Made by a program: the position numbers and the translations under genes. Below are positions 31,911 through 60,807 of a stretch of 64,000 nt of DNA, one piece after another. Below the pieces are notes generated by a model, which saw only the letters and a list, made by a program, of their open reading frames with translations, was not told where the DNA came from and made no database searches. Numbering within the stretch: position 1 is the stretch's first letter; every line of letters starts with the position of its first letter. Source of the DNA: Adineta ricciae (taxonomy: Eukaryota; Rotifera; Eurotatoria; Adinetida; Adinetidae); the NCBI GenBank assembly GCA_905250025.1, contig CAJNOJ010000153.1, positions 1 to 64,000 of the forward strand, read 5' to 3'.

Positions 31911-31911
31911 N

Positions 31912-32806: not shown

Positions 32807-33166
32807 GAGATTAACCTCCAAGTGATATAAATACCCGCTTTCTCAATCAGAGAAAGGAACCCATGGCTATTGAATTACAACGCCGGCCAATCGAAATTCA
32901 TTTGAACGTGAATACCATTCGACTCCATCTTCAGGATATACAGATGAATGAACGATCTACTCATCTTTGTTTCGTTCTTCGTGAGAATGACGCAAGTGAA
33001 AAAGATTTCATTCTGTGTTAATCAAGATAACAACATTCAGACATAGCTTTCTTTTAATTGAAATAAATGTTAATTTCTTCAGGAAATCAACAGGAAGACA
33101 GTAGAAAGACTGTAGGAGTCGTTTGTGATTATAAGATGCATAGTTTTGACAGACAAACTTGTCAAA

Positions 33167-34103: not shown

Positions 34104-34856
34104 TAACGAGAAGATGATATTTTTCATCTTGGATAAACTATTTACGAATAGAGGTAGAAGAGTTTGCAATATCTTTCGCTAGGCTATAGACTAATATAAT
34201 ATAAAAGGTGTAAATTGCGGCCGTGGGCAAATATGTGCAAGAAAGAAAAAAGTTGTAGTTATCCTCAAGACGGTGCAAAAGTATCAACAATTCATGCATA
34301 CCCACGCACATGGTATATTGCTAGTCTGATTATTCTTGCTTCTCACAACACCCTTACTCTTTTTTTTGTGCTTTCTTTTTTTGTTCTTTAACTTACATCC
34401 AATTTGTTTGTGTTATGCTTTCTACAAATAGTAGACGAGTGTTTTAAGTTTTTCTTTCACTTTTCTCGTCACAAAACTTTGAGATGCACATTCAGGATTC
34501 TTTTCAGTGTCTTTCTCTTTCTAGTTGTGAAATATCTTTTTCTTACATTTACCAGTTTTTAGCAAGATTCGAGTACTTTCGAGACGAATTCGCCAAAGTA
34601 TGCTTTTCGAACTTGATCACATTAATTCTAAGTAGAATTTGATTCGTAATAATATTTTTATTCTACACCGTTAAAACAGTTATAAATTGAAGAGATTCAG
34701 TTTTCTTTATTCAATTTAGTAATCTCGAGCTTCAGTTTTACTAAAACGAGCAATAAAAGCGTTGTGTGGAGAATAACGTCAATTTCAAGGAACTGAATGA
34801 AGGATGAACATAATTTCTCTCCACAAAACTGCGTTTTAGATACAACTCGGGTCAAA
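34104..34856. other. Intergenic region upstream of the ART-TPR gene
   Basis: Counterpart of 30621-31451 with indels and higher divergence. Pyrimidine tracts, no gene seen. An ATG at 34797 in frame with the ART-TPR gene is not kept in the other copy and is taken as 5' leader. Confidence 0.35.
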
Positions 34857-37800: not shown

Positions 37801-38009
37801 ACAAATATGCCGTTTCTGATCATGTACAACTTGCTGCTGTATACTCTCGTTTAATTGATATATGTATGCGACAAGAAGACTACGATTTATGTTTGGAATA
37901 TGCAGAGCAAGAATTAATGCATCTTCAATCAGTGCAACAGCCTGAGAATGAACGTATAATGGAGTGCAAAGAAAAACTAGAAAGTTTTAGAAAGCAACGT
38001 TCTACTTGA
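34857..38009 (+). CDS. ADP-ribosyltransferase-TPR protein, complete copy
   Basis: Single-exon, 1050-residue predicted mono-ADP-ribosyltransferase. Residues about 60-200 form the alpha/beta domain shared with the other ART genes here (VIWLDSN, FLVTSGSLGRILVPLIHN, IYVYC). The ART domain spans about 280-470: Arg338 in VYRGQM, FLSAT near 364 (the usual STS is SAT), and Glu431/Glu433 in GGEQEILFAMGS, so the R-S-E triad is largely kept. TPR units follow (AWANYKLGRLYMRKGEYQTA; YRNIARIYSYLYEYAMALENY) with a long, less repetitive middle. AATAAA at 38040-38045 follows, and the chitinase gene ends only 77 bp away, tail-to-tail. Partner copies: 31452-31910 and 44676-47479. Confidence 0.88.
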   Translation: MNKNDEKAIFTDGKFSCWIEEQGDLKINFGWHEHNENDVVEVFDHLSTSAGNTQSSVRSNATDLPTHLKHSCSTNSNNIEVIWLDSNADNNDDCLDTQARLGTLIQSSQVFLDSDECVDYIVSSDDRAVFLVTSGSLGRILVPLIHNTDQIIGIYVYCANVGTHIQWAQRYVKIYGIFNEKNTLFTKLIQDLESFDTSFDTFSMSGMIDTKKETSIKDLRAKEQSIVWYQLIIEALLRLEDTSDEKAEMVAECRKHYVNDEIECLKICDFENNFTPNDAIRWYTRDSFLYRLFNKAMRTQDVPFIYKFRFFLKALYNQLARVYNCETIHAQPIKEVYRGQMIRIEELQRLKDNVGYAVSFHSFLSATRDKQVAAIFSGNGKGRPFFESVVFCIKILGDFHPYIETNLRVMNSAGIDGKPFADITNYATYGGEQEILFAMGSVFKVLSIKLVDNIWYAKCNFYSGGIGNFLRYEFRSWNVLLGYNPRMDVIGDFLLQLNNYADAITFYISSAKDQSDHLAVAWANYKLGRLYMRKGEYQTALDYLQKAENLMLLHVDITDFWLKNVFETTGDTYMRRAQQQSDPKSDYEYAIVNYKKALNTVIKKKDNGVKQNPLEFQATKVILGSSNEEVMQAEISYKIFKAYCQMNNHADSEYFREVFLTTLLSNSIYSYEQSKINTHEVFTAGVDSRTADTVAIRQRLFSHVSYIVEGAVVPNHLEMYKRCTELIRLAIEEEKKLILCKFLSDMCSPFYPNPYDILIFYHKYNLFSGSKYENDYSQYIIHQKNILNADCSNAPSGFSLYMRLSLTDFYLDTTLEKRLASEELDQIFLIQMMDFHSALWIQRRDLLNISNGSCFDYQEKFVLARYYSYYENPPTSIGDAYQRLRMYESQLKLLITMDLTKAALANPYRNIARIYSYLYEYAMALENYEKCLEIVHTHMSPNVSFLRRTYALIAHEIVELYLNTNAVAHARDLMKLWLNFAHKYAVSDHVQLAAVYSRLIDICMRQEDYDLCLEYAEQELMHLQSVQQPENERIMECKEKLESFRKQRST

Positions 38010-38039
38010 AAGGAGAACCTGCCAATACAATAATAATTG

Positions 38040-38045
38040 AATAAA
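38040..38045 (+). promoter_or_regulatory. Poly(A) signal of the ART-TPR gene
   Basis: AATAAA 31 bp after the stop codon, also present after the second copy near 47510. It lies in the 77-bp gap between two convergent genes. Confidence 0.5.
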
Positions 38046-38085
38046 GAAAGCCTTTTCTTAGCGAAGAGATGTCGTTAGGAAATGT

Positions 38086-41000
38086 TTAATGTTTTGATTT
38101 AAAACGATATGAAGGATTCTTTTTGAAGTCAATACAGCCATCGCATGCACAAAATTGATCACCTGTTCCACAATAGCCGCCGTTGGAACAGCAGTGAGCA
38201 TTTTTGTCGTCGGGATTACAAATCGGAAAAGTATGACCAGTGATTGGAGGAATGTCCGCACCGCATCGACCTCGCTTGCCGTCCGGTGCATCGAGTAAGT
38301 ACCAGAGTGGAGGATCAATCGTTGGTCGAACCGGTTCTTCGGTTAAGAGATTAGGATTTTCTTCGTAATTGATTCCTAGTCCTGTACAGTGCTTATCCGA
38401 TTTACCACAGTAACCCTCGGGTGAGCAACAGGAGTAGCCAGGATCGTCGGGATCACAAACCGGATAATAACCTTTGTATAGCGGAGCTGACCGGCCACAC
38501 ATGCCTGCTTTCTCTTCGCTATCTTCCATTGTCCACCAACGCTTTTCGTCAAGAGGCGAGCATTTATAAGAGTACGATGACGGATTTGTCTGTTTGCATA
38601 GTGGTGCATCGCCAACTATTTTCATCATTGTTAGATTGGAATCATCTTGATCGATCGCCCAGATCATCAGACCCCCTAAATTATTGTCCGCAGCGTAATC
38701 TGCTTTGTATTTCAATGACCTTGGACTTTCGTAACCTAAATAGATTTGTTCTTGATTGTTGAAAGCAAACGTTGATTTCGTCTTTTCATGAAACTGTTCT
38801 CGGTAATTTGCATTGGTTAACCATGATTCTTTAATTTCATTCCAAGGAGCGAAACCGCCCACAAATCTACCGTTTACTGCCGATGCTCTTCTCCACATCG
38901 GATCACTCGGATCGATCGATTCTCGATCAACATTTCGCCAAAAGCGACCATAAAATGGAACTCCCATATTGATCTTATGTGGTTGCTTTGTCTTACATAC
39001 GTAGTATTTCACTGTCCAATGCACATTCGTTTTGCCTGAAAATCGAGGAGGCATACCGAAATACAGAGGCGCCGGTGGTCCTGTATATGCACCCCATTTG
39101 GATTCCCAAGCACCAAAGAAATCGTAGGTCATGATATTAACGAAATCCGCGTATTTCAATAGCCCGGGTAAATCAAACCCCGGATCGAGCGTCCATTGAC
39201 CAGCTGCCGAAGCAAATGATAGCAAACAGCCAGGCCGATGTCTGTCTAGAGCTTGTCGTAGTTCTCTCATGAGTATAACATAGTTTTGTTTATCTTGTGG
39301 TACACCTTCGTTAGCACCTCCTGTGACGGGATACTCCCAATCGATATCAATCCCATCCATTTGATGCTCGTCGAGTAATTTTAATGCCGAAGCGATGAAA
39401 CGAACGCGTTTCTCGGGTGAAGCAGCAATAGAACTGAAATATTGCGAATTTTCCCATCCGCCGACCGCAAACATGTACTTTATATCTGGGAAGGCATCTT
39501 GCAGACGTTTAAGACGATCCAAACGTTGTCGAGCAATTCTTGTGTCTTCTTCAACATTTGCACTGTGTGTTCGATCGGCACTACCCAAAAGTATATTACC
39601 GTTAGCTTCCACTTCGAAAAATGCAAAGATAATGTGTGTTAAACGGTGCGCATGCTGAGAAGTTATCTTGCCTGTACCCCACGACGGGTAATACCCAATA
39701 ATACGTTTACCACATTTCGCTGCTTGACTAATATTATCACCTCCTTCATCGGATGATTCATCATCACCTTCGTCGTCACCTTCGATAATGTCATAATTTG
39801 CGTCGTCGAAGATACTCAATGAGCTTAAACCGAACAAAGCGGCCATGCCTCTGGCTTCTGCCGGTGTGCAACCTCGTACTTCTCTATTTTCTTCATCGAC
39901 TTGACGTTTTGATTTTTTCTGCTTTTTCTGCTTCGGTGGTTTATTATCACGTTTCTTTTGATCCATCATTAGATCTGTATGCCAAATATCAGCTTCTTTT
40001 TTATCTAACGACATTGCCGATGCACACTGAGCGCCATTGACTGTCAAACCACTTGGTCGTCCTTTAACTGCATCTCGGTATCCGAACAAGAAGGGATTTC
40101 TTGCTACAAAATAATATGGATCGGAGCTAAGGTGTGCTATAATTTCCCCTTGTGAAACAGGCGTGAAAATTTTGATGAATTCTGCTCGATCTTTTCTTGT
40201 TAATTTAGAATTGTCCGATATGAAACCTACAACATGTGTACGACCGTTTCGGTTGTAACAGATCATTTTCCAGAAGCAGGAAGGTACAGCGACACCGCCG
40301 ACAAGTTTGGTTCTGCCGCGAGCTTTCGGACAAACACCAGTGACGACGAGACTTGGCGGATATTTATGATTATGACATCGAATATGTGCTTCAATCATGC
40401 GCCATGGAACTTGATTTGTAATAGCGTTTTGCGGTGCGAGATTAATACGTAAATTGGAACTGAATGATGCGTCACGAGAATAACTGAGGATTTCACTCGG
40501 CGTTAAATGTCCGTGATCATATCCCGAACCATTGTATGCATTCCGACTTGCTTGAGAATCCTTCAGTTCTCTACATGGATGATGCGTGTAACCCTTAGTG
40601 CGTTTACCAGCTGTTGTCATCATATCATTGATTTTGTCCAGTACACACATGGACCATATGGGTAAATTGCGTCTTTTATCGAATAAAACAACATAAGCAT
40701 TGATGCGATCTGTTTTAATTGCAATCAAAGGATGATTATTATTTGGACATGGTTCAGGTTCGCATTTAGGCTCTGGCTTCCAAATGGCACGATTCTTGTT
40801 TACAGTATCTCGATGACACACAGCATTGATATCATTCGTTGCTTTATAGAGAAATTCGCATTCGTATCGACATCTCGACCCGATAGATTTAGCATGACAG
40901 TCATTGAGAGATTGTGCTATGATCTTGTCATTTTTTCTGTTCACGTCTGGCTTACGGCACCTGGGCCCACCTCGATCTTTACCATCATCGTCGTCGTCGT

Positions 41001-44000
41001 CATCACAGTCTCGATCATGTTTATTTCCAGCCAAATCACGTTTCACTTGTCGTATCTTGCAATTGCGTTTTTTGTCGTTTTCGTTCTTCTTATCTTTCTT
41101 TCCGTTCTTCGATTTCTTCAGTTGGTCTTTGACATTGTTTCTTGACTTACCAATGGAGTCTTTGATTCCTTTGCCCACTTTCGAAGCAGCTTTACCAACA
41201 CCCGGTAATGGAACAACAGCCAATGCATCGAAACCCACATTTGCTATACCTTCGAGTGCACCTTTCACATCTCCTTTGCCTATGGCTTTACCAACTTTAA
41301 TCACATTTTCACCAAGACTTTTGACATCTTTAACAATACCAATGCTCATGAATTCGTCTTTTGCTGCTTTTGTGTCCCCATTGACCAGGTGACCAAGCGT
41401 TTTAACTGCTTTAATTGGTGTCTCGACGACTTCCTTCGCTGCGTTAAAAAGAGGTTTAACAATTTTGTTTCCAACCCACTTAGCAGCTTTTTTAATAAGA
41501 CCAAAAAGTCGTCGTTGTCGAATCACAGCCGCCGAATTGATTTCTGTTTCATTTCGTTTACTTAAACTTGTTTGATATCCATTCAATGTTGAATATGTCT
41601 GTTCATTTGTCGATGACGATATAGGATAAAAACATTCGCGTGTATCTGTCGTGGGATAAAACAATGGCATGTCATCAATATCATTCAGGGTCAATTTGGA
41701 ATTGAAATAACGTGAATAAATTTCACCGAATTTATCTTGAACAACAGTGGTTTCATTTTGAAAATAAGTACAAGTTAAAACTTCATTCGTATACTTGATC
41801 GAAATGTATTGACATGATAAGTTTAATGGTGAAACAAACAGACATCGATGCAGACAAGTGTCTAAACAAGTATCGTAATTGCTGGTGGACGGACATGGGA
41901 TAGCATCTTGTTTGAGGTGGGAACTCTGATCAGCAACGGCGAAATCGAGCGTACGATCGAATGCCATTCGCATAGAGGTAAAATTATTATTGGGAAGGAA
42001 CGGTCGAATGAAACAATGGCGATTTTGAAATTTAACATTCTTGTTTACATATCCCGGTCGATCAGTGCCCATTTTACATTCACGTGTATTGAAATCGTAG
42101 GAAAATTTTTGACATTGAATACTCCGTTGACATAAACTGTAACATTGATCGAACGAAATGAATGTTGATGAGGATGAATATAAATCACACTGAGGTATAA
42201 ATTGAAACTTTTGCTGAGGATATTGCATCCAATAACGACGTTTTCCTGCTTGATTCCAATCACTATAACTTGTCAGATACTGGCAATCTAACGTTAATTC
42301 ATCGAAATCAATGGCAATACATGAAGGGTTTTGCTTCATGAAGCATTCAGTCATGCAAATGTTTAGTTTTCTCTCTTTGCGTTCTTTTTCGTGTTGCAGA
42401 TTTGTGGTCATCGGACATATGGGTAGATTTCTATCATTGATCAATGCTGAATTCGGTTCTGTTTTCAAACATTCTTGACATCCGGTTACTTGATTACAAC
42501 CGTTCATATTCGACAAGTAGCAATTTGGATTATAAAAACTATCGATTTGTGATGATGCAGATGTATTCGTCGATACTTCACATAATGATTTCGTTTTCGA
42601 GAGCTGGCGCTCATAGTTAACATCGTCTTCTTCAATAAAACGCCATTGATTCGAACTGTTACCGTAGATAAGTTGGAAATTGATCACTGACAGATATCCA
42701 TAGGACAGAAACATGTTGCTATCGTCTTCGTTAGTATCGAATAACTGACATGAATTGGAATGGAAATGATATGTTATTGATAAACAATTTCTTGTTACTT
42801 GACACATCTGTAAACACTCTAAAGCTGAATCTGCCTTTCGTCGTTCTCCTTGGCCGGAAATTCGTGTATTCCTTGTATAAAGCCAATTTTGAATAAGACC
42901 TGTCGGTTGTTTGATGAGAACAGTTTTCCATTGGTCTGTTTGATTGGTTAATTGCAAGCGTTCGCTATCCGCACGCATTCGATCGAATGTTAAACATGTT
43001 TTCTCGGTTTCGGAATAGGAATATCCAATACATTGTTTATCATCGACACAAGTCATAAAGCATTGTTCGAAATCCAGATTGTGCTTTGTCGATCGTGGTG
43101 GATTATCTTCTTGATTAATGACGACGCCGAGCATTTTATCGAATGGAGGTAGATTTGGACACAGGTCACATAAATGAATTCCGTCAGTGGAATTTTCGAA
43201 GACGACCACCGCGTCTCGATTCGGATCGAGATCGGTGCACATCAACGGTTCTGAATTGAGTTGAAAATCATTTGCTTCTAAGAGAAGATACTTTGTGTAA
43301 GCGATATAAGCGTCCAATGGTGATAGTGATGAATCAGTTGCATTGTCTATCGACTCAGTTTCATCACTATCTTCTATAGAGAAAAACAAAACACAACTGA
43401 TCAAGTGCATGAGAGATGGTGGAAGTTTGATCACTTACGAAATTCATAGACGAGATATTTTTCATTTTGAATCAATGTTCGTTCATTACATTTCATTGTT
43501 GCATAGCATGAACTGACAACAACATCAGCCGATGTGTCGGAATCGTCATCAGTTTCTTCTCTTTCATCGCTTAAATGATTCCACATACAAAAACGTTTTT
43601 TCCGTATTTCGCACCACTGTAAACAATCTGTTAAGGTTAATGGAATAGAAGATTTGCGCCGACCATTGCTCACACATAGGTGCCCTTCGTTCACATTCGT
43701 AAACATGATCCACTGTTGATTTTTAATCGCGATATTTTTATCTGTCTCACTAAATTTCCATTCTCCTCGATTATCAATCATCAATGTTTGATTCGTATGC
43801 TTCTGCACTATTTTACATCGATCGTTGTTTCCTTTTAGGATTTCGAATTGTTGGTTTTCGTCTGATGTGTCCAATGACCATTGATACAAGAGTGATGAAT
43901 CCGGAGATGGCTGTTTGATAGCCAACGCTTTTTGTGTTGCCATACAGACAATCACGTAGAGTGTCGCTTTGTCTACTTGGACAGGTAGAAATTGCCATTC

Positions 44001-44455
44001 TTGATGTTTAGTTTCACTTTTTGGTCGAAGACTGATACCAGAATTCTCAATTGATGTGGAGAATTTGCCACAGTCTAAATAGCCATGTTCGGAGAATATT
44101 TTATAGGATTTGTCTTCTTTAGATATGCAAATATTCTCTTCGTCGGAAGTGTTTGGAGGTAAAACTTCCTTTTCACTCGAACAATATTCGTCTGTGTTAC
44201 CGCAACTAGAATTATATTTGCATAAAGCTGAATCTTTTTGGTAAATATAGTATTAATATACTGACTATCCATACTGTGAACAGCACATATTTGCGTCAGG
44301 ACAGCCACAGATCCGACAATCACCAACTATAAACTCACGAAGAGTTACGGCTGTATCATAATCGGCTGTGTTACATACCTCGAGTTTTATCGATAAGAGC
44401 CAAATCCGGTGTTGTTATTGCTGATTTATCACAGTGCTCTTTCGTTGAACCACAA
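38086..44455 (-). CDS. Giant secreted chitinase-nuclease proprotein, copy 1, 5' exons missing
   Basis: Same gene as 47556-54380 (see there for domains). Exons 5-8 of that model are present: 44455-44379, 44326-44266, 44205-43439 and 43373-38086, all with the same splice sites. The last exon alone codes for about 1760 residues. It keeps both basic sites (RQRR and KSKR), the endonuclease motif DHGHL, GH18 DGIDIDWE and the two C-terminal hevein domains. Exons 1-4 (signal peptide and the first hevein units) are not found: the sequence left of exon 5 diverges abruptly at about 44459. Compared with copy 2 there is one extra Lys in the KKDKK run and scattered replacements. No stop or frameshift. Confidence 0.85.
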
Positions 44456-44458
44456 CTA

Positions 44459-44674
44459 ACGAGGGAACATATTTAGGTGATTAAGCGATTTAGATCCCAT
44501 CTTTTGGTGATAGATAGACCTCAATGAGGTATGAAAAACCTCAAGAGGATTCGTGCCCTCGCGCCTTTATTTCAAAGATACTGAGTTCTCAGGATGTATA
44601 CGAAAAGAGACTGAAATGAAGGATGATCGTTTTTATAGAACAGTAGAGTTTTCAGGTGAAAACTTTTTTCAGTT
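44459..44674. other. Unmatched tail at the left-hand contig end
   Basis: 216 bp with no counterpart upstream of exon 5 in the second copy (53929 onwards), ending at the N. It contains a short inverted repeat, ACCTCA-A-TGAGGT, near 44518. No coding signal. Either a real structural difference between haplotypes or a chimeric contig end. Confidence 0.6.
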
Positions 44675-44675
44675 N

Positions 44676-47479
44676 GTGTTGATTACATTGTATCCAGTGA
44701 TGATCGCGCAGTCTTTCTTGTCACATCAGGTTCGCTTGGTCGTATTCTGGTTCCACTTATTCATAACACTGATCAGATTATTGGCATATATGTATATTGT
44801 GCGAATGTCGGTACTCATATTCAATGGGCACAACGTTATGTCAAAATATACGGCATTTTCAATGAGAAGAATACGTTGTTTACGAAGCTCATACAAGATC
44901 TTGAGTCATTCGATACGTCATTCGACACTTTTAGTATGTCAGGTATGATAGATACGAGAAAAGAAACATCAATAAAAGATTTAAGAGCTAAAGAGCAATC
45001 TATAGTTTGGTATCAATTGATTATCGAAGCATTATTACGTTTAGAGGACATGCCTGATGAAAAAGCAGAGATGATTGCAGAATGTCGAAAACATTATGCT
45101 AATGATGAGATTGAATACGTAAAAATACGCGAATTTGAAAATAACTTTACTCCAAATGATGCAATTCGGTGGTATACAAGAGATTCGTTTTTATATCGGT
45201 TATTCAACAAAGCAATGAGAACACAAGATGTTCCCTTTATTTACAAATTTCGTTTTTTCCTAAAAGCACTGTACAATCAATTGGCGCATGTTTATAATTG
45301 TGAAACGATCCATGCACAGCCAATTAAAAAAGTTTACCGAGGTCAAATGATTCGTATCGAAGAATTACAACGGTTAAAAGACAATGTTGGTTATGCCGTT
45401 TCCTTCCATTCATTTCTATCAGCAACGAGAGACAAACAAGTTGCTGCTATTTTCTCTGGCAATGGTAAAGGCAGACCATTTTTTGAATCAGTTGTCTTCT
45501 GCATTGAAATACTTGGTGACATTTATCCATATATTGAGACAAACTTGCGTGTAGTGAATTCGGCAGGAATCGATGGAAAACCATTTGCAGATATTACGAA
45601 CTACGCTACGTACGGTGGAGAGCAAGAAATCTTATTTGCAATGGAATCAGTGTTCGAAGTATCGTCTATTAAGTTAGTTGATAACATCTGGTATGTTAAG
45701 TGTCATTTCTATTCTGGAGGAGTGGGAAATTTCTTGAGATACGAATTTAGTTCGTGGAATGTCCTTCTTGGATATAATCCTCGAATCGATGTCATCGGAG
45801 ATTTCTTACTTGAAATGAATAATTACACTGATGCCATTACTTTTTATATTTCCTCCGCGAATGATCAATCGGATCATTTAGCAGTCGCATGGGCAGATTA
45901 TAAACTAGGAAGATTATACATGCGAAAAGGTGAATATCAGACTGCTCTCGACTACTTGCAAAACGCAGAGAATACAATGCTGCTACATGTAGATGTCACA
46001 GATTTTTGGCTAAAAAATATTTTTGAGACAACTGGCGATACCTATATACGACGTGCTCAACAGCAATCTGATTCTAAGGACGATTATGAACGTGCCGTAG
46101 TAAATTATAAAAAAGCACTTGATACTGTCATTAAGAAAAAGGACGACGGAGGGAAGCAAAACCCATCAGAATTCCAAGCAACTAAGATGATAATAGGTTC
46201 AGGCAATGAAGAAGTTATGCGTGCCGAGATTAGTTACAAGATATTCAAAGTATATTGCCAGATGAACAACCATGCAGAGGGTGAATGCTATGGAGACGTA
46301 TTCTTAGCAACTCTTCTTTCGCATTCAACTTATAATTACGAACAATCAAAAATCAATAAACGAGAAGTTTTTGCTATTGCTTCAGATTCTAGAACAATAG
46401 ATACTGTAAAACTTCGACAGCTGCTATTCAGTAATGTATCTTACATTGTAGAAGGAGCCATGATACCAAATCATCGTGAAATGTACAAGAGATACACTGA
46501 ATTAATTCGGTTGACTATCAAAGAAGAAAATAAATTAATCCTTTGCAAATTTATAGCTGATATGTGTTCACGATCTTATCCAAATCCATACGATATTCTC
46601 GTCTTTTATCACAAGTACAATCTATTCAGCGGTAGTAGATACGAGAACGATTACTCAGAGTATCTCATCTTCCAAGAAAACATTTTTATGATTGATTGCA
46701 CAAATGCACCATCTATGTTCGCCCAATATTTGCGTATATGTTTCACTGCTGCTTATCTGAATGTTACACTTGAAAAAAGATTAGATTCTGAGGAGCTGGA
46801 TCAAATATGCTTAATTCAAATGATGGATTTTCATTCTGCTCTGTGGATTCAAAGGCGAGACTTGAGAGGCACGAATGACGATGAGTGTTTTGACTATCAA
46901 GAAGGGTTTATACTTTCTAAATACTATTCATATTACGAAAACCCACCTACATCCATCGGCGATGCTTATCAGCATTTGCGAATGTACGAAAGTCAACTGA
47001 AACTCCTTATAACAATGGATCTAACGAAAGCAGCTCTAGCAAATCCCTATCGAAATATTGCTCGAATCTACAGTTACCTCTACGAATATTCTATGGCGTT
47101 GGAGAACTATGAAAAATGTTTAGAAATTGTTTATACACATATGTCACCGAATGTTTCATTTTTGAGACGAACATATGCACTTATCGCGCATGAAATCGTT
47201 GAACTTTATTTAAATACGAATGCTGTTGCACATGCAAGGGATCTTATGAAGTTATGGCTTAATTTTGCACACAAATATGCCGTTTCTGATCATGTACAAC
47301 TTGCTGCTGTATACTCTCGTTTAATTGATATATGCATGCGACAAGAAGACTACGATTTATGTTTGGAATATGCAGAGCAAGAACTAATGCATCTTCAATC
47401 AGTGCAACAGCCTGATAATCAACGTATATTGGTGTGCAAAGAAAAACTAGAAAGTTTTAGAAAGCAACGTTCTACTTGA
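44676..47479 (+). CDS. ART-TPR protein, copy lacking its first ~116 residues (contig start)
   Basis: Open from the N at 44675 to the stop at 47479, about 934 residues, in the same frame as 35206-38009. Carries the end of the alpha/beta domain, the full ART domain (VYRGQM, FLSAT, GGEQEILFAMES) and the TPR part. The last 155 residues differ from the other copy at only about six sites, but a 43-residue stretch coded by 46655-46783 differs at 19 sites. The beginning is missing only because the contig starts here. Confidence 0.85.
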
Positions 47480-47555: not shown

Positions 47556-50500
47556 TTAATGTTTTGATTTAAAACGATATGAAGGATTCTTTTTGAAGTC
47601 AATACAGCCATCGCATGCACAAAATTGATCACCTGTTCCACAATAACCACCGTTGGAACAGCAGTGAGCATTTTTGTCGTCGGGATTACAAATCGGGAAA
47701 GTATGACCAGTGATTGGAGGAATGTCCGGACCGCATCGACCTCGCTTGCCGTCCGGTGCATCAAGTAAGTACCAGAGTGGAGGATTAATCGTTGGTCGAA
47801 CCGGTTCTTCGGTTAAGAGATTAGGATTTTCTTCGTAATTGACTCCTAGTCCTGTACAATGCTTATCCGATTTACCACAGTAACCCTCGGGTGAGCAACA
47901 GGAGTAGCCAGGATCGTCGGGATCACAAACAGGATAATAACCTTTGTATAGCGGAGCTGACCGGCCACACATGCCTGCTTTCTCTTCGCTATCTTCCATT
48001 GTCCACCAACGCTTTTCGTCAAGAGGCGAGCATTTATAAGAGTGCGATGACGGATTTGTCTGTTTGCACAGTGGTGCATCGCCAACTATTTTCATCATTG
48101 TTAAATCGGAATCATCTTGATCGATTGCCCAGATCATCAGACCCCCTAAATTATTGTCCGCAGCGTAATCTGCTTTGTATTTCAATGATCTTGGACTTTC
48201 GTAACCTAAATAGATTTGTTCTTGATTGTTGAAAGCAAAAGTTGATTTTGTCTTTTCATGAAACTGTTCTCTATAATTTGCATTTGTTAACCATGATTCT
48301 TTAATTTCATTCCAAGGAGCAAAACCGCCAACAAATTTACCGTTTACTGCCGATGCTCTTCTCCACATCGGATCACTTGGATCGATCGATTCTCGATCGA
48401 CATTTCGCCAAAAGCGACCATAAAATGGAACACCCATATTGATCTTATGTGGTTGCTTTGTCTTACATACATAGTATTTCACTGTCCAATGCACATTCGT
48501 TTTGCCTGAAAATCGAGGAGGCATACCGAAGTACAGAGGCGCCGGTGGTCCTGTATATGCACCCCATTTGGATTCCCAAGCACCAAAGAAATCGTAGGTC
48601 ATGATATTAACGAAATCCGCGTATTTCAATAGCCCGGGTAAATCAAACCCCGGATCGAGCGTCCATTGACCAGCTGCCGAAGCAAACGATAGCAAACAGC
48701 CAGGCCGATGTCTGTCTAGAGCTTGTCGTAGTTCTCTCATGAGTATAACATAGTTTTGTTTATCTTGTGGTACACCTTCGTTAGCACCTCCTGTGACAGG
48801 ATACTCCCAATCGATATCAATCCCATCCATTTGATGCTCGTCGAGTAATTTTAATGCCGAAGCGATGAAACGAACGCGTTTCTCGGGCGAAGCGGCAATA
48901 GAACTGAAATATTGCGAATTTTCCCATCCGCCGACCGCAAACATGTACTTTATATTTGGGAAGGCATCTTGCAGACGTTTAAGACGATCCAAGCGTTGTC
49001 GAGCAATTCTTGTGTCTTCTTCAACATTTGAACTGTGTGTTCGATCGGCACTACCCAAAAGTATATTACCGTTAGCTTCCACTTCGAAAAATGCAAAGAT
49101 AATGTGTGTTAAACGTTGCGCATGCTGAGAAGTTATCTTGCCTGTACCCCACGACGGGTAATACCCAATAATACGTTTACCACATTTCCCTGCTTGACTA
49201 ATATTATCACCTCCTTCATCGGATGATTCATCATCACCTTCGTCGTCACCTTCGATAATGTCATAATTTGCGTCATCGAAGATACTCAATGAGCTTAAAC
49301 CGAACAAAGCGGCCATGCCCCTGGCTTCTGCCGGTGTGCAACCTCGTACTTCTCTATTTTCTTCATCAGCTTGACGTTTTGATTTTTTCTGTTTTTTCTG
49401 CTTTGGTGGTTTATTATCACGTTTCTTTTGATCCATCATTAGATCTGTATGCCAAATATCAGCTTCTTTTTTATCTAACGACATTGCCGATGCACACTGA
49501 GCGCCATTCACCGTCAAACCACTTGGTCGTCCTTTAACTGCATCTCGGTATCCGAACAAGAAGGGATTTCTTGCTGCAAAATAAAATGGATCCGAGCTGA
49601 GGTGTGCTATTATTTCACCTTGTGAAACAGGCGTGAAGATTTTGATGAATTCTGCTCGATCTTTTCTTGTTAATTTAGAATTGTCCGATATGAAACCTAC
49701 AACATGAGTACGACCGTTTCGGTTGTAACAGATCATTTTCCAGAAGCAGGAAGGTACAGCGACACCGCCGACAAGTTTGGTTCTGCCGCGAGCTTTCGGA
49801 CAAACACCAGTGACGACGAGACTTGGCAGATATTTATGATTATGACATCGAATATGTGCTTCAATCATGCGCCATGGAACTTGATTTGTAATAGCGTTTT
49901 GCGGTGCGAGATTAATGCGTAAATTGGAGCTGAATGATGCGTCACGAGAATAACTGAGAATTTCACTCGGCGTTAAATGTCCGTGATCGTATCCCGAACC
50001 ATTGTATGCATTCCGACTTGCTTGAAAATCCTTCAGTTCTCTACATGGATGATGCGTGTAACCCTTAGTGCGTTTACCAGCTGTTGTCATCATATCATTG
50101 ATTTTGTCCAGTACACACATAGACCATATGGGTAAATTGCGTTTTTTATCGAATAAAACAACATAAGCATTGATGCGATCTGTTTTAATTGCAATCAAAG
50201 GATGATTATTATTTGGACATGGTTCAGGTTCGCATTTAGGCTCTGGCTTCCAAATGGCACGATTCTTGTTTACAGTATCTCGATGACACACAGCATTGAT
50301 ATCATTCGTTGCTTTATAGAGAAATTCGCATTCGTATCGACATCTCGACCCGATAGATTTAGCATGACAGTCATTGAGAGATTGTGCTATGATCTTGTCA
50401 TTTTTTCTGTTCACGTCTGGCTTACGGCACCTGGGCCCACCTCGATCTTTACCATCGTCATCGTCGTCGTCATCACAGTCTCGATCATGTTTATTTCCAG

Positions 50501-53500
50501 CCAAATCACGTTTCATTTGCCGTATCTTGCAATTGCGTTTTTTGTCGTTTTCGTTCTTATCTTTCTTTCCGTTCTTCGATTTCTTCAGTTGGTCTTTGAC
50601 ATCGTCTCTTGACTTGCCAATGGAGCCTTTGATTCCTTTGCCCACTTTCGAAGCGGCTTTACCAACACCCGGTAATGGAACAACAGCCAATGCGTCTAGG
50701 CCAACATCCGCTAGACCTTCGAATGCACCTTTCACATCCCCTTTACCTATGGCTTTACCAACTTTGATCACATTTTCACCAAGACTTTTGACATCTTTAA
50801 CAATACCAATGCTCATGAATTCGTCTTTTGCTGCTTTCGTGTCCCCATTGACCAGGTGACCAAGCGTTTTAACTGCTTTAATTGGTGTCTCGACGATTTC
50901 CTTCGCTGCGTTAAAAAGAGGTTTAACAATTTTGTTTCCAACCCACTTAGCAGCTTTTTTAATAAAACCAAGAAATCGTCGTTGTCGTATCACAGCTGCT
51001 GAATTGATTTCTGTTTCATTTCGTTTACTTAAACTTGTTTGATATCCATTCAGTGTTGAATACGTCTGCTCATTTTTCGATGACGATATAGGATAAAAAC
51101 ATTCACGCGTATCTGTCGTTGGATAAAACAATGGCATGTCATCGATATCATTCAGGGTCAATTTGGAATTAAAATAACGTGAATAAATTTCACCGAATTT
51201 ATCTTGAACAACAGTGGTTTCATTTTGAAAATAAGTACAAGTTAAAACTTCATTCGTATACTTGATTGAAACATATTGACATGATAAGTTTAATGGTGAA
51301 ACAAACAGACACCGATGCAGACAAGTGTCTAAACAAGTATCGTAATTGCTGGTGGACGGACATGGGATAGCATCTTGTTTGAGGTGAGAACTCTGATCAG
51401 CAAGGGCGAAATCGAGCGTACGATCGAATGCCATTCGCATAGAGGTAAAATTATTATTGGCAAGGAACGGTCGAATGAAACAATGGCGATTTTGAAATTT
51501 AGCATTCTTGTTTACATATCCCGGTCGATCAGTGCCCATTTTACATTCACGTGTATTGAAATCGTAGGAAAATTTTTGACATTGAATACTCCGTTGACAT
51601 AAACTGTAACATTGATCGAACGAAATGAATGTTGATGAGGATGAATATAAATCACACTGAGGTATAAATTGAAACTTTTGCTGAGGATATTGCATCCAAT
51701 AACGACGTTTTCCTGCTTGATTCCAATCACTATAACTTGTCAGATACTGGCAATCTAACGTTAATTCATCGAAATCAATGGCGATACATGAAGGGTTTTG
51801 CTTCATGAAGCATTCAGTCATGCAAATGTTCAATTTTCTCTCTTTGCGTTCTTTTTCGTGTTGCAGATTTGTGGTCATTGGACATATGGGTAGATTTCTA
51901 TCATTGATCGATGCTGAATTCGGTTCTGTTTTCAAACATTCTTGACATCCGGTTACTTGATTACAACCGTTCATATTCGACAAGTAGCAATTTGGATTGT
52001 AAAAACTATCGATGTGTGATGATGCAGATGTATTCGTCGACACTTCACATAATGATTTCGTTTTCGAGAGTTGGTGATCATAGGTAACATCGTCTTCTTC
52101 AATAAAACGCCATTGATTCGAATTGTTACCGTAGATAAGTTGGAAATTGATCATTGACAGATATCCATAGGACAGAAACATGTTGCTACCGTCTTCGTTA
52201 GTATCGAATAACTGACACGAATTGGAATGGAAATGATATGTTATTGATAAGCAATCTCTTGTTACTTGACACATCTGTAAACACTCTAAAACTGAATCTG
52301 CCTTTCGTCGCTCTCCTTGGCCGGAAATTCGTGTATTCCTTGTATAAACCCAATTTTGAATAAGACCTGTCGGTTGTTTGATGAGAACAGTTGTCCATTG
52401 GTCTGTTTGATTGGCTAATTGCAAGCGTTCACTATCCGCACGTATTCGATCGAATGTTAAACATGTTTTCTCGGTTTCGGAATAGGAATATCCAATACAT
52501 TGCTTATCATCGACACAAGTCATAAAGCATTGTTCGAAATCCAGATTGTGCTTTGTCGATCGTGGTGGATTATCTTCTTGATTAATGACGATGCCGAGCA
52601 TTTTATCGAATGGAGGTAGATTCGGACATAGGTCACATAAATGAATTCCGTCAGTGGAATTTTCGAAGACGACCACCGCGTCTCGATTCGGATCGAGATC
52701 GGTGCACATCAAGGGTTCTGAATTGAGTTGAAAATCATTTGCTTCTAAGAGAAGATACTTTGTGTAAGCGATATAAGCGTCCAATGGTGATAGTGATGAA
52801 TCAGTTGCATTGTCTATCGACTCAGTTTCATCACTATCTTCTATAGAGAAAAACAAAACACAACTGATCAAGTGCATGAGAGATGGTGGAAGTTTGATCA
52901 CTTACGAAATTCATAGACGAGATATTTTTCATTTTGAATCAATGTTCGTTCATTACATTTCATTGTTGCATAGCATGAACTGACAACAACATCAGCCGAT
53001 GTGTCGGAATCGTCATCAGTTTCTTCTCTTTCATCGCTTAAATGATTCCACATACAAAAACGTTTTTTCCGTATTTCGCACCATTGTAAACAATCTGTTA
53101 AGGTTAATGGAATAGAAGATTTGCGCCGACCATTGCTCACACATAGGTGCCCTTCGTTCACATTCGTAAACATGATCCACTGTTGATTTTTAATCGTGAT
53201 ATTTTTATCTGTCTCACCAAATTTCCATTCTCCTCGATTATCAATCATCAATGTTAGATTCGTATGTTTCTGCACTATTTTACAACGATTGTTGTTTCCT
53301 TTCAGGATTTCGAATTGTTGGTTTTCGTCTGATGTGTCCAAAGACCATTGATACAAGAATGATGAGTCCGGAGATGGCTGTTTGATAGCCAACGCTTTTT
53401 GTGTTGCCATACAGACAATCACGTAGAGTGTCGCTTTGTCTACTTGGATAGGTAGAAATTGCCATTCTTGATGTTTAGTTTCACTTTTTGGTCGAAGACT

Positions 53501-54380
53501 GATATCAGACTTCTCAACTGATGTGGAGAATTTGCCACAGTCTAAATAACCATGTTCGGAGAATATTTTATAGGATTTGTCTTCTTTAGGTATGCAGATA
53601 TTCTCTTCGTCGGAAGTGTTTGGAGGTAAAACTTCCTTTTCGTTCGAACAATATTCGCCTGTGTTGCCGCAGCTAGAATTATATTTGCATAAAGCTGAAT
53701 CTTTTTGGTAAATATAGTATTAATATACTGACTATCCATACTGTGAACAGCACATATTTGCATCAGGACAGCCACAGATCCGACAATCACCAACTATAAA
53801 CTCACGAAGAGTTACGGCTGTATCATGATCGGCTGTGCTACATACCTCGAGTTTTATCGATAAGAGCCGAATCCGGTGTTGTTATTGGTGATTTGTCACA
53901 GTGCTCCTTCGTTGAACCACAACTAATCGATACATAAGTGTGACGATGTTAGGCAATAGGTTCAATACTTACTAGCCGTATGGCGAACAGCAAAGGCCCG
54001 GTTCACACCCACAGATGCGACAATCGCCATCTGAAAAATACTTTCTCAATTGAAATCATCTCTCATAGATCAATTCAATACTTACTTCTGATTGTAATAT
54101 TCTTGCTTGATCGAGTCAAGTCATTTTTACAATGTTCAGGGGTGTCTCCACAACTTAGTTTATGAAAAATGTAGGTATGAATGGAATCTACATGATCGTA
54201 TCGACTTACAAGCCGTATTCAGAGCAGCATAGATCACCGGGACATCCTTCTAGTTTGCAGTTACCATATACTGAAGATGAATGGGAGAGTAGTATTAACT
54301 TGTTGAATGTCTCTCATTAACTCACCATAGATGATGAGAAACGAAATCAAGACAATAGAAAGTCGAATATCGAAGATCAT
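47556..54380 (-). CDS. Giant secreted multidomain chitinase-nuclease proprotein, complete copy
   Basis: Eight exons fit: 54380-54326, 54270-54210, 54153-54086, 54030-53973, 53922-53846, 53793-53733, 53672-52906, 52840-47556, totalling 6432 bp, exactly 2144 codons (2143 residues). Order: signal peptide (IRLSIVLISFLIIYG); three hevein-like chitin-binding domains (e.g. CCSPYGYCG); a trefoil-like region (KNQQWIMFTN); PAN/apple-like cysteine repeats; a furin-type RQRR site (1001-1004); a lysine-rich amphipathic region (FGLIKKAAKWVGNKIVK); Lys-rich and poly-Asp linkers; a sushi-like segment; a DNA/RNA non-specific endonuclease domain (YDHGHLTPS at 1333-1341, His1337 catalytic; the usual Arg of DRGH is His); a KSKR site (1535-1538); a GH18 domain (GYYPSWG; DGIDIDWE at 1721-1728); two hevein-like domains (about 2004-2131). 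Likely degrades chitin and extracellular nucleic acid. Confidence 0.88.
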
Positions 54381-54946: not shown

Positions 54947-56376
54947 TCAATTTCTATCAGTTTCGAATTTTTGCGTTGTGCTGTTTGAATAATCAAGAAC
55001 GTAAAGATTGCCTTGTCGATCGAACGACAAACCTAGAGCATTTGGTTGACGAACGATGGCATCACCTTGAGCTGCTTCTTTCGACCAGCGTACTACTCGG
55101 TTATTATCATAATCTGCCACATAGAGAGTCCCCAATTCATCGACGATTATTCCACAAGGATGTGACAATTGGTTTAAATGATATCCCTGACCCTGTCCAC
55201 CAGCAACGACAATACCTACTTTTGCATCTTTCGTCCACTTCATTATACGATGGTTTTGGTAATCTGATACATAGACTGAAAAGTTTTGATCGACGGCGAT
55301 GCCATAAGGATTTTTCAGCTGATCGAGACGAGTTCCTGATCCATTTCCCCCAGCTACAATTGTCCCATTTGCGTCTCCTATTTTCAATCGCCTCACTTCG
55401 TGCTTATCCCAGTCGGCAATATAAAGATCTCCATGTCTATCCATAGCCAAACCGTGACAACTAACATTTGAAAGGATTGTTTCTGCAGCTGTGCCATTTC
55501 GGCGAGGCCATCGGACTACTCGTCTGTTACCACAATCACCAATGATCAAACAATCATTGTTTTGATCTCTATGAACGATCACCGATTTTGGTGAATTCAA
55601 TTGCCCGTTATTGCCCGCTATTACTTTTACACTAGTTTCACCAATCTTCCATTCCACAATACGGTTATTGCCAGTGTCGGCTACGATTATACTTTGATTG
55701 CTATCATCGATACACATACCCCACGGCCGGTTTAGTTCATTTCTTCCAAATACAGTGATCCCGTTTTGTTTCCATTTTACATTGGTATTGATCTTGCCAT
55801 CTGAAATAGATACGGAATCGCCAAAGAACGAAGTCAATTCAATTAATATATACACGTACTTGAGAAAACAATGACACGAATCGGAGAAATGAATGATGAA
55901 GATTCTTGCTGTATTGAAATATTTGATGATTTCACAAAGTTTTCTTTTAATTCGTCCAAGTTTTCTTTCAATCGAATCAGATGAATTTCATTGAAGTCGT
56001 TTTCTTCTCGAATATTTCTCAGCTGCTCCGTGAATTTGCACAATTCAGTTTCAATTGTATTAGTATGTTTGTTGATATACTGTCTTACTAATTGTCTTGA
56101 CATTTCTGCCCTTTCTTGAATCTTCGTAATCGAGTCCCTTTCCCATTGGTTGACTTCGTCGATTAATGAATGTTTTTCTGGATTCGTTTTTTGTTCCGTT
56201 AGGATTTGTCGAAAAAGATTTCGTTGATTTTCTAATTCATCTAGTTCTATGCTAAGTGTTATATTATGTTCGTTGAGATGATTCAAACAAAAACTTTGTA
56301 GACAACCTTCGCATTTATATGCAACTCTATCTTTTCCACATGTAACACAATGAGTTTTACCAGTCGATGTCGCCAT
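54947..56376 (-). CDS. B-box, coiled-coil and NHL-repeat protein (TRIM-NHL-like without RING)
   Basis: Two exons (56376-55860, 55800-54947; 59-bp intron) total 1371 bp, giving 456 residues. Residues about 9-37 form a B-box-type zinc finger (CVTCGKDRVAYKCEGCLQSFC, then H). Residues 40-165 are a coiled coil (ELENQRNLFRQILTEQ). The rest is a six-blade NHL propeller (IIVADTGNNRIVEW, LYVADYDNNRVVRW). No RING finger precedes the B-box, so ubiquitin-ligase activity is not expected from this protein alone. Paralogous to 18224-19556 and 23482-24814, which lack the B-box and share the intron position at the coiled coil/propeller border. Intact, single copy in the window. Confidence 0.9.
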
Positions 56377-57039: not shown

Positions 57040-58990
57040 AAGTCGGAGGAAAAATGGAAAGCTTTGCAGCAAATCGTTCAGATGCGCCAAGTCGGTGTAC
57101 ATATATTCTTCATGGTGATCAGACAAAATGTCTAGATCATCTGACTTTCGAGTTCGTTTTCCTTCTTGAGATAAGTCTTTTCCTACGTCTACGTTTTAGA
57201 CAAAAATCACATCGGTAGAAAATCTACAATAATGTCCTGGAGTTAATTGGTGATACACTACTTGTACTGTTAATCGTTTAAGGCAAGATGCAGGCATTCA
57301 ATGTAATGTTTGTAAGTTAATTATATATACTCATTTGAGCAATAATTTTACTGAGTATTTGAATTTAGTGACAAAACTGGAATATATGGATCCTGGTGGT
57401 AGTATCAAAGATCGAATTGGTTTATGTATGATTGAACAAGCTGAAAGGAATGGATCGTTGAAATCTAATGATACTATCATTGAATCGACAGCTGGAAACA
57501 CAGGTGTTGGGTTAGTATCGGTCTGCGCAGTAAAAAACTATCGATGTATTATACTGTTTTACCAGAAAAAATGAGTAAAGAAAGGCAAACATCAGAATCA
57601 CATTTTTGGGTTTTGTCTTATGGTTTGCTATTCAGATAGACGTACCTCGGGCATTGGGTGCAGAAATTGTTCGTACGCCAACGATTGCACCGTTCGATTT
57701 ACATGAATCAGATATTGCTGTAGCTCATCGATCGAAAAGCAATATTCCTAATTCACATATCCTAGATCAATATCGACATTCTTATAATTCCATCGCACAT
57801 TATGATACAACAGCAGAAGAAATTTTTCAAGCATGCAACAGTGAGTATAAGATTCGTCGAGATATCTACAACTCAATAGTTTGATTTTGTTATAGGACAA
57901 GTTGACATGATCGTCGTCAGAGCTGGAATATGCAATCTAGAAATGTATAACGAGTATTGGTAAATGACAGATGTTTAATTTCAGGAGGAACACTATCTGA
58001 TCTGTCGAGAAAATTAAAAGAAAAATGCCCGAATTGCATCGTCATTGGTGGTGTTAATGTCGACGGTTCATTGTTAGCGCAACCAGAAGCAATGAACTCA
58101 ATTGGAAGCACGTTCTATAAAGTAATTCTCTGCTTTTCAACTTCTTTCACATATCTCATTGAGAATTGATTTTGGATCGAAGAAATCGAGTAGGGAATAT
58201 TCTGTATCTACGGAATATGGATAAAATTGAAATGAATATAGGCATGGTTTTATTCCAACTGTACTCGATTGATCGTTAGCTGATCGTTGGTATAAAAGCT
58301 CTGAAAAAACATCATTTCAATGTGCAAGGAAATCAATTAAAGCCGAAGGCATCCTTTGTAGTGGATGGTCCGGCGCAGCTATGGCATGTGCTTTACAAGC
58401 ATGTAAAGATTTTCAATTGACCGAAAATCAAAATTGTGTTGTTATTTCCCGGATTTCATCTGAAGCTATATTTAAAAATTTCAACCGACTTTCACATTAA
58501 TCGAATTTAATTTGTTTTTATTAACACAGTTCGAAATTTCTGAGCATTGATTGGATGTATGACCGTCGTTTTCTGGATATTGACGAGAAACCAACTTCTG
58601 AATGGCGACAAATACGTCTTGTATCAAATTTATTAATTCATCACCGCGTTACAGTATCAGCAGAAACAACAATTCAATCAGTGCTTGATATTATGCATGC
58701 GAGAGGTTTCGATCAAATACCTGTTACTTCAGATAAAGCGTAAATTTGAATTCCTAAATATTCGCTTAGGTGTTGCGTAACTTTTGATAAAGTATTATTG
58801 AGTATGACGAAAATGTCCGAAACTATCGTGAAGATGTTGCATGGTGCAATTAATACTGCAGATCCGGTGTAAAAAATAATGACAGATAAATTTCCATTGG
58901 TAGATTCGTCTTGTATTATGTAATCCAGAAATGTGGTGGACGAACAATTCGTCGCCATGATAATTTTTCGCACAAGTATTTACTCGTGTA
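57040..58990 (+). pseudogene. CBS: Cystathionine beta-synthase, degenerate
   Basis: Pieces in the order of animal CBS, the PLP enzyme joining serine and homocysteine: haem-region trace (RSDAPSRCTY near 57080), YNNVLELIGDT, the PLP-lysine block GGSIKDRIG (57390-57420), [83 protein letters not shown], and a regulatory CBS domain (LDIMHARGFDQIPVTSDK) with a tail (KFPLVDSSC). Small introns are visible, but the gene is broken. There is a frameshift after YRCII, loss of the PLP phosphate loop GTGGT (now AGIC, then GGT), TGA inside VLD-SLADRWYK, damage after CVVI, and TAA in ADPV-KIM. Several lesions make function implausible. Confidence 0.8.
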
Positions 58991-59371: not shown

Positions 59372-59509
59372 CTGGATACACCAAATCCACTCATATTCTT
59401 CAGCTTTCCAGGATACGCTTCTATTTGGTTATCGTGTTGGATACACTGACTCAGCTGCATATGGTAACGCAGTGAATTGTCTGCTTTTGGATGAATACCG
59501 GGTGTAACG

Positions 59510-60807
59510 GGATTATGACATCACTCAACAAATTACCCAATCTCTGCTCCACAACTCATTCACTCCGGTCGTTTACATTGACTTCTTGCAAGCTTTTGAT
59601 AAGCTCTGGCAGCAGGCTTTACTATTGAAGTTAAATAGGCTAAACTGCCCATCGCCCTATCTTATCTGGATTGCAAACTACTTCACCGAACGATCACTCA
59701 AAATTGACTATGGGGGTATAGAATCAACATTAGTTGAAGTAGAGCGAGGAGCACCTCAAGGAAGCTGTATTGGTCCGGTAATGCATGTCATCAGCCATCA
59801 CGACATCCCTTACATTTTTGAAAATCCTATCCATGTACATGCCTATGTTGATGATATAGCAATCGCCTACATCCCATCTTTTCATTTGAAATCAAAATCT
59901 CAAATTGGAGAAATGAATGAACGCATCAACAGGGACCTGGGAAAACTATTAAGATATTCGAATGATTGGCATCAGCCACTTAACCCCAACAAAACTGAAT
60001 TTGTAGTTTACCATAAATCAATTCAATGCCCCAAACTCGACATTTACTATGATGGGGTGAAAATTATACAAAAGAAAAATTTCAAATATCTTGGCTTTCA
60101 TCTAGATGCAAAGTTGTCCTTTCGGAATATGATCGATGCTCAATATTTAAAATTAAGAGAAGCCTATATTATATTAATTAAAGTTTATTCACCGGCAGTT
60201 TCCCTCATTTTCGAAATTAAAAATGAAATTTTTCAATACATATATATGGCCTCACATGTACATGATGGCAACAATTTACTGTCCTTTCTCTAATACGTCT
60301 TGTGAACGTGAGCAGCTTTTTATCGGCAATACTTGAGACTGATACACTGTTTGTTTCAATGTCCTACAGTAGACTTACATCAACATTTTCAACTGCCCAC
60401 GATTGAAAAACATTCAGCTGTACGAACCGGTGTTTTTGGAATGTGCATTACAATACAAATTTTTATTTAACACGATCTATTATCATTATCGAATTAAAGC
60501 AAATATTAAGTACATGCCAGCAAGTCGACCAACCAAGAGACTAACGTCATATCTTGATAATGAGGAGCATACCTTTTTCGATCGTCTATGCGGGTTTGTC
60601 TTGAACTAAATCATTTCATACCTCGATGTGCAGGTTCCTTTCTTCCTATACATCAGATTAGTATTCATAGACTTGTTAATGTTCACTTATGCTTTCTTTT
60701 GTTTTTCTCAAGTTGTCGTTCTCTCTTTGAAGCTCACATTATGATAAGACGGTCAGCGCCTAATGGCGAATTCGTCATAAGAAATAAATAAAGCGTTAAA
60801 AAAAAAA
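59510..60807 (+). mobile_element. Decayed non-LTR (LINE) retrotransposon, 5'-truncated
   Basis: Reverse-transcriptase fragment. The frame from about 59516 reads VVYIDFLQAFDKL (RT motif A), LKLNRLNCPSPYLIWI, RGAPQGSCIGPV (motif B) and AYVDDIAIAY (motif C, with YVDD), then PNKTEFVVYH and FKYLGFHLD, all typical of LINE RTs. There is no endonuclease domain upstream, so the copy is 5'-truncated. After 60293 the frame is broken by stops, with further fragments to 60780. The 3' end has AATAAATAAAGCG followed by an A-run (about 60797-60806), a normal LINE tail. No target-site duplication was identified. Inactive. Confidence 0.8.

Follow-up and report, generated by a model that had tools for sequence, protein, structure and literature searches.

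A predicted Chitinase PE of the rotifer Adineta ricciae, with chitin-binding domains, an endonuclease and a GH18 chitinase in one chain

Gene B and its module order

The window analyzed here is the whole stretch of 64,000 nucleotides at positions 1 to 64,000 (forward strand) of contig CAJNOJ010000153.1 of the bdelloid rotifer Adineta ricciae (assembly GCA_905250025.1). On its minus strand lies a gene, designated gene B (54380-47556), whose predicted product, protein B, is on its domain content a rotifer member of Chitinase PE, so that the architecture is one already known. The eight exons, separated by GT-AG introns of 50-65 nt each, encode 2143 amino acids and a stop, i.e. the 2144 codons that an earlier note on this DNA, made from the letters alone, had counted.

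In its N-terminal half the predicted chain consists of a hydrophobic leader (the first 20 residues are hydrophobic as read by eye), three ChtBD1 chitin-binding domains, a ricin-B-like lectin domain, PAN domains and the basic motif RQRR. There follow an amphipathic linker, a CCP-like segment, an Endonuclease_NS domain, the basic motif KSKR, an acidic spacer, the GH18 domain and two more ChtBD1 domains (Table 1). RQRR was located at residues 1001-1004, KSKR at 1535-1538, the nuclease motif DHGHL at 1334 and the GH18 motif DGIDIDWE, which is complete and accompanied by MTYD, at 1721; the two basic motifs are at the residues given in the earlier note. Exon 8 (52840-47556) is an uninterrupted open frame of 1761 codons that by itself encodes the PAN domains, nuclease, GH18 and C-terminal chitin-binding domains; the nuclease, KSKR and GH18 are thus parts of a single unbroken exon. 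Since this one exon is open throughout, the fusion is not an error of the gene model, and the claim of a single chain with chitin-binding domains, a nuclease and GH18 was right.

The results of the Pfam search agreed with this order. The exon 8 frame matched Glyco_hydro_18 (PF00704; 3e-90), Endonuclease_NS (PF01223; 1.1e-21), PAN_1 (3.1e-11) and Chitin_bind_1 (1.8e-6), the exon 7 frame matched RicinB_lectin_2 (1.6e-9), and Chitin_bind_1 was matched over three N-terminal stretches (4.1e-21). The three families for which the earlier note had proposed a domain search (Endonuclease_NS, Glyco_hydro_18 and Chitin_bind_1) were therefore all found, together with two kinds of module absent from its list, the PAN domains and the ricin-B-like lectin. 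PAN_1 was recognized in three stretches at 3.1e-11 or in four at 9.8e-14, above the 21.4-bit cut-off. After GH18, the exon 8 frame scored 28.5 bits against PF00187, for which the cut-off is 27.8, with its best stretch at 1744-1766; 47559-49205 alone scored 24.7 bits, which is under that cut-off. The proposed sushi module kept all six cysteines in the paralogue described below and had no Pfam match (E<=10 requested, HMMER filters removing most matches above ~0.1), and it is CCP-like at best.

Table 1. Gene B modules and associated features in the window
Feature	Position	Strand	Basis
Exon 1, with the start codon; its hydrophobic N-terminus is a likely signal peptide	54326..54380	-	signal peptide by eye
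Three N-terminal ChtBD1, an intron within each (exons 2-6 to start of exon 7)	53640..54270	-	Chitin_bind_1 4.1e-21
Ricin-B-like lectin match, exon 7	53234..53473	-	RicinB_lectin_2 1.6e-9
Exon 8, 1761 codons and stop, PAN region through C-terminus	47556..52840	-	open frame
PAN/Apple region, 3-4 PAN_1 stretches, best 52191-52343	50988..52802	-	Pfam
RQRR basic site (paralogue RKRR)	50976..50987	-	motif and paralogue
Amphipathic linker module, paralogue 45% identical	50613..50975	-	paralogue comparison
CCP(sushi)-like six-cysteine segment	50220..50438	-	cysteines; no Pfam match
Endonuclease_NS domain with H1337, N1359, E1376	49653..50177	-	Pfam and EXOG alignment
KSKR basic site (paralogue KTKR)	49374..49385	-	motif and paralogue
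Acidic spacer, net charge -15 (paralogue -13)	49191..49373	-	charge sums
GH18 catalytic domain with DGIDIDWE	48114..49175	-	Pfam and PDB matches
C-terminal region, two ChtBD1 domains	47559..48032	-	Pfam
Exons 5-8, most likely other haplotype of gene B	38086..44455	-	in-frame exons, alignment of assembly pieces
One end of a multi-copy inverted-repeat element, in intron 4 of the other haplotype	44460..44674	.	TAA target duplication

A paralogue on C43, and the second copy in the window

To place gene B in its own genome (130.5 Mb, 1033 contigs), exon 8 was used as a query, and 28 matches were obtained. Besides the two copies in the window, only a locus on C43 matched nearly the whole exon; the remaining matches covered GH18 only. 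A spliced alignment guided by protein B predicted 15 GT-AG introns for the C43 gene and a stop-free product of 2128 residues, a model forced by homology to protein B and doubtful at its first intron. The two proteins are identical at 1030 of 2064 aligned residues and keep their modules in order. Five intron positions agree in place and phase, a sixth lies within one residue, and six further C43 introns fall within the region corresponding to exon 8 of gene B, which suggests block loss of introns toward the 3' end of the window gene, or gains in C43.

Identity between the two proteins is highest at the C-terminus (77%) and in GH18 (72%), followed by the nuclease and the N-terminal ChtBD1 domains (52% each), the linker (45%), and the PAN region and acidic spacer (40% each); it is lowest in the ricin-B-like part (35%), the CCP-like segment (34%) and the segment just before KSKR (29%). 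Most of the cysteines of protein B are also cysteines in the C43 protein: 20/20 in the N-terminal part, 32/34 in the PAN region, 6/6 in the CCP-like segment, 6/7 in the nuclease, 3/4 in GH18 and 15/15 at the C-terminus. At the two basic sites RQRR is replaced by RKRR and KSKR by KTKR, so that the same two places are basic in both proteins; the neighboring segments are 29-45% identical. The linker has a hydrophobic moment of ~2.0 in both proteins, with maximum 19-residue hydropathies of 1.35 (protein B) and 1.21 (C43), below the level usual for a transmembrane segment. The acidic spacer carries a net charge of -15 in protein B and -13 in the C43 protein.

The second copy in the window (38086-44455) consists of exons 5-8 only, without a start, signal peptide or first chitin-binding domain. 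The earlier statement that all modules are in frame in both copies thus holds for these four exons and not for the remainder, which is missing from that place. Scaffold joins, each consisting of a single N, occur at 31911 and 44675. The 110 bases directly upstream of the first join recur unchanged directly downstream of the second, and the intervening piece (31912-44674) can be aligned both with the end of its predecessor (89.8%) and with the start of its successor (95.3%). Outer pieces that share these 110 bases, with a middle piece alignable to each of them, are what scaffolding would produce by inserting the other haplotype. We therefore regard the second copy as most probably that haplotype, set in tandem, and a true tandem duplication of the gene is disfavored. 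Direct repeats at about 28.4-35 kb, spaced by ~3.4 kb, are probably a product of the same artefact.

Within intron 4, at 44459, the homology of the second copy to gene B breaks off. Its 5' part was found elsewhere on the same contig, at C153:96110-96882 (95% identical), which places exons 1-4 of the second copy ~52 kb from its exons 5-8. Both broken ends (44460-44674 and C153:95924-96103) carry the same multi-copy sequence (44 genome matches) in opposite orientation with identical inverted termini. The element is flanked by TAA on each side (44457-44459), the empty site in gene B has one TAA (53924-53926), and we take the element to be PIF/Harbinger-like. Since the 5' part is present and the same element lies at both broken ends, the other haplotype probably has all of the exons plus a transposon in intron 4.

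When the window copies were compared over 2063 codons, the nonsynonymous divergence (dN) was 0.0128, the synonymous divergence (dS) 0.084, and dN/dS 0.15. By segment, dN/dS was 0.09 in GH18, 0.11 in the nuclease, 0.13 in the C-terminal part, 0.16 in the PAN region, 0.17 in both the acidic spacer and the N-terminal ChtBD1 domains, 0.22 in the linker and 0.30 in residues 151-395, which include the ricin-B-like part; the CCP-like segment had no change in 71 codons. The changes per segment are few, and every computable ratio is well under 1. The chain is under purifying selection along its compared length, and the module order kept on C43, together with the dN/dS of 0.15, makes the combination of modules more than a chance one.

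As for the neighbors, an NHL-repeat gene (54947-55987, minus strand) belongs to a family with 207 genome matches. We considered it as a shared neighbor that could identify the C43 locus as an ohnologue; none of the listed matches lies on C43, and this locus is therefore termed a paralogue only. Another copy of the NHL gene lies near the displaced 5' part (C153:97166-98077; 89% identical, one in-frame TAG). Between the two window copies there is a gene for an ADP-ribosyltransferase (ART) and TPR protein (44676-47479, plus strand), and a stretch from 35206 (plus strand) is 80-97% identical to this gene region. The many NHL matches, the ART and TPR neighbor, the very short introns and arrays of TGTGGG are all in keeping with a bdelloid rotifer, as is the published ChtPE relative of A. 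ricciae discussed below; the arrays themselves carry little weight, as the control repeat was TGTGGG in rotation and yielded equal counts. Frames at 57254-57884 (plus strand) resemble cysteine synthase, and one at 59508-60293 (plus strand) is reverse-transcriptase-like, both as judged by eye.

Relatives of the nuclease and chitinase domains

The nuclease residues H1337, N1359 and E1376 align to residues of EXOG, and from this alignment we take H1337 to be the catalytic histidine and N1359 the metal-binding asparagine. The domain resembles the EXOG/ENDOG/Serratia nuclease family (PF01223) in its Endonuclease_NS match and in the aligned H, N and E; it differs in being cysteine-rich and placed inside a chitinase chain, and relatives of solved structure match at E ~1e-6 or weaker. 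Both window copies have DHGH where the C43 paralogue has DRGH. In one scan per collection, no nuclease relative was confirmed among 161 prokaryote (0/161) and 62 viral (0/62) pattern-matching stretches, pattern-seeded scans of this kind being able to miss relatives, and a recent transfer of the nuclease from bacteria or viruses was set aside on this result.

For the GH18 domain, at least 575 relatives were confirmed among the first 595 prokaryote stretches, and they are distant, the best 80 of them being 29-38% identical; a tblastn search of these 80 loci with the linker, PAN and nuclease sequences (E<=0.01) gave no match. Exon 8 matched 157 distinct PDB sequences (E<=0.01), and the 60 listed all cover GH18. 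The top whole-sequence match was 5gzu_A (4.1e-82 summed over two GH18 domains; best single domain 6.8e-44), and among the matches listed the best single-domain match was 8hw6_A (2e-58). The NCBIfam model ChiD_Serratia scored 117 bits, far below its cut-off of 750. In the A. ricciae genome the nearest GH18 outside C43 is a stretch of 119 residues on C245 (44% identical).

The nuclease gave 13 exon-level matches in the same genome. Among the 115 GH18 matches listed, one lay within 10 kb only for the two window copies, the C43 locus and one piece on C140. On C140 the two parts are separated by ~3.5-4 kb containing a frame that looks unrelated to either, and were judged by eye to be separate rather than a further fusion. 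Inspection by eye suggests an EXOG/ENDOG type for the nucleases at C12:739 kb and C17:257 kb, and a small, different type for the pieces on C140 and at C127:75 kb. Pieces of a small nuclease-like protein distinct from the nuclease of gene B lie at L047 7598-7990 and L048 1967-2200 (both plus strand), one of them with DAGHIIGNQ; the L047 piece is the one on C140, ~3.5-4 kb from another GH18 gene.

Relation to Chitinase PE and possible function

In its passages on the family, PMC9933517 (2022) describes Chitinase PE (ChtPE) as a combination of PAN, endonuclease, GH18 and ChtBD1, and gives Diaphorina citri ChtPE and Acyrthosiphon pisum Cht7 as members, with a signal peptide followed by PAN/Apple, endonuclease, GH18 and ChtBD1. 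Orthologues with all of the domains are reported there from a few dispersed insects (sap-sucking), spider mites, springtails and rotifers; horizontal transfer is suspected, and its source is left unexplained in those passages. The tree includes the A. ricciae protein CAF1372083.1 (PMC9933517), which may be gene B itself or its paralogue.

All four ChtPE features looked for were found in gene B, namely an N-terminal PAN region, an endonuclease, GH18 after it and ChtBD1 after GH18. Since PMC9933517 describes the same order of these four for ChtPE, with PAN/Apple in an extended N-terminal part and the DNA/RNA non-specific endonuclease in the middle of the chain, the architecture is of a known kind. 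The earlier note had not recognized it and had named identical architectures in other animals as evidence that would count against its reading; the former statement is overtaken by the publication of ChtPE from several animal groups including rotifers, and the latter situation is nearly what the published proteins present (PMC9933517). As described there, nothing but PAN is recognizable as a domain N-terminally in the insect proteins, whereas gene B adds three ChtBD1 domains and a ricin-B-like domain ahead of the PAN region; the basic sites, linker and acidic spacer are further features described here for gene B. Bemisia tabaci Cht8 and Cht9 also combine GH18 with ChtBD1 and cluster with ChtPE in the 2022 tree, but are reported to be without PAN and endonuclease (PMC9933517) and to be encoded by single-exon genes (PMC8002649).

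We consider it probable, at modest confidence, that protein B is a chitin-targeted chitinase/nuclease used in antifungal defence or digestion; its secretion, cleavage, activity and target are predictions. The secreted protein would bind chitin, and perhaps other glycans, through its ChtBD1, ricin-B-like and PAN modules, and would dock on targets that contain chitin, for example hyphae, spores or microbes that have been ingested. RQRR and KSKR are supported as conserved processing-type motifs, and cleavage is predicted there: the chain may be made as a precursor that a furin/PC/Kex2-type protease cuts, in protein B releasing residues 1005-1538 as the fragment bounded by both sites. GH18 would hydrolyze chitin and open the wall, and the mid-chain, EXOG/Serratia-type non-specific nuclease, as part of a cationic fragment, would degrade nucleic acid released from the target or reached in it. 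The acidic spacer after KSKR may hold the nuclease quiet until cleavage.

Several observations weigh against this interpretation. Protein B has four [KR]x[KR]R motifs (the other two at 328 and 1668) compared with 1.7 in shuffled sequences, so that the presence of the motif alone is weak evidence; one of them lies inside GH18 of both proteins (RLKR in B, KLKR in C43, a few residues apart), and the C43 protein carries further ones. Summed over segments, the fragment that the two sites bound has a net charge of ~+41 in protein B and only ~+18 in C43. The window nuclease, with DHGH instead of DRGH, could be weakened. Bdelloids raise the expression of putative glucanases under fungal attack, and what PMC11258130 names in its passages on that response is glucanases, with no chitinase of the ChtPE kind. 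Digestion, finally, fits the anatomy nearly as well as defence. Defence is to us slightly the more probable of the two, given the number of binding modules and the up-regulation of glucanases under fungal attack.

The possibility that the protein is purely digestive, i.e. a chitinase/nuclease secreted in the gut for fungal, algal or bacterial food and nucleotide salvage with no role in defence, overlaps with the favored interpretation in all but purpose, and we regard it as rather unlikely while giving it more weight than the other alternatives. Secreted nucleases and chitinases are common digestive enzymes. D. citri ChtPE is reported from all stages and tissues with peaks in the head, thorax and midgut (PMC9933517), which is consistent with such a role, but a single chain that unites five ChtBD1 domains with PAN and lectin-like modules, and has conserved basic sites as well, would seem to exceed what digestion needs. 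An unlikely alternative is a weapon modelled on the chitinase-bearing yeast killer toxins that deliver a toxic subunit, in which chitin docking and GH18 would bring the nuclease into living fungal cells with help from the linker. Zymocin and D. hansenii pDH5A ORF2, as described in the relevant passages of PMC8472843 and PMC11119588, likewise unite chitin binding, GH18 and a nuclease part, and the ORF2 product, with ChtBD1, GH18, a NucA/NucB fragment and Kex2-type motifs, also parallels the processing sites. Protein B has the chitin-binding plus GH18 module of this type, and its linker is conserved with the same hydrophobic moment in the paralogue; the nuclease family, however, is different, no tRNA-degrading or NucA/NucB cargo having been found (Endonuclease_NS was the sole nuclease family matched in Pfam), and the hydropathy maxima do not make the linker a clear membrane segment. 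Zymocin further differs in its separate subunits with a tRNA-degrading gamma subunit, and the ORF2 product in having NucA/NucB, with no PAN domain mentioned in those passages (PMC8472843, PMC11119588). A broader idea sees in the ChtPE family the animal equivalent of chitinase-guided killer toxins. Each protein would be a single proprotein, activated when a convertase cuts at the two conserved basic sites, that breaches the living fungal cell by chitin docking and GH18 activity and delivers its nuclease with the amphipathic segment; this appears slightly less probable again.

Still lower we rate remodelling of structural or developmental chitin (egg shell, trophi, hatching) with the nuclease as a passenger or inactive. 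It would fit with GH18 and the C-terminal ChtBD1 region being the best conserved parts and with the departure of DHGH from the DRGH of the paralogue, but the low dN/dS of the nuclease, its paralogue identity and the retained H, N and E argue for its use, and an RNA interference study cited in PMC9933517 lists molting effects in D. citri only for other chitinases (Cht5, Cht7, Cht10-1 and Cht10-2). That separate genes were joined by a gene-model or assembly artefact is highly improbable: the single-N joins and the haplotype duplication do disturb the region, but in each window copy a single open exon encodes both nuclease and GH18, and their order recurs on C43 and is reported in other animals (PMC9933517). 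Two separate genes were rejected on the one open exon and the order in the paralogue.

The ChtPE fusion is patchily distributed, and the passages of the 2022 paper on its distribution could not explain how this came about (PMC9933517). What the present locus contributes is a gene model from a rotifer together with a full-length paralogue, a nuclease fragment bounded by two conserved sites of processing type, additional lectin-like domains, and evidence that purifying selection acts along the chain. With these, what a nuclease does inside a chitinase becomes a directly testable question, in a host group, the bdelloids, with a natural fungal pathogen already used in published RNA sequencing challenges.

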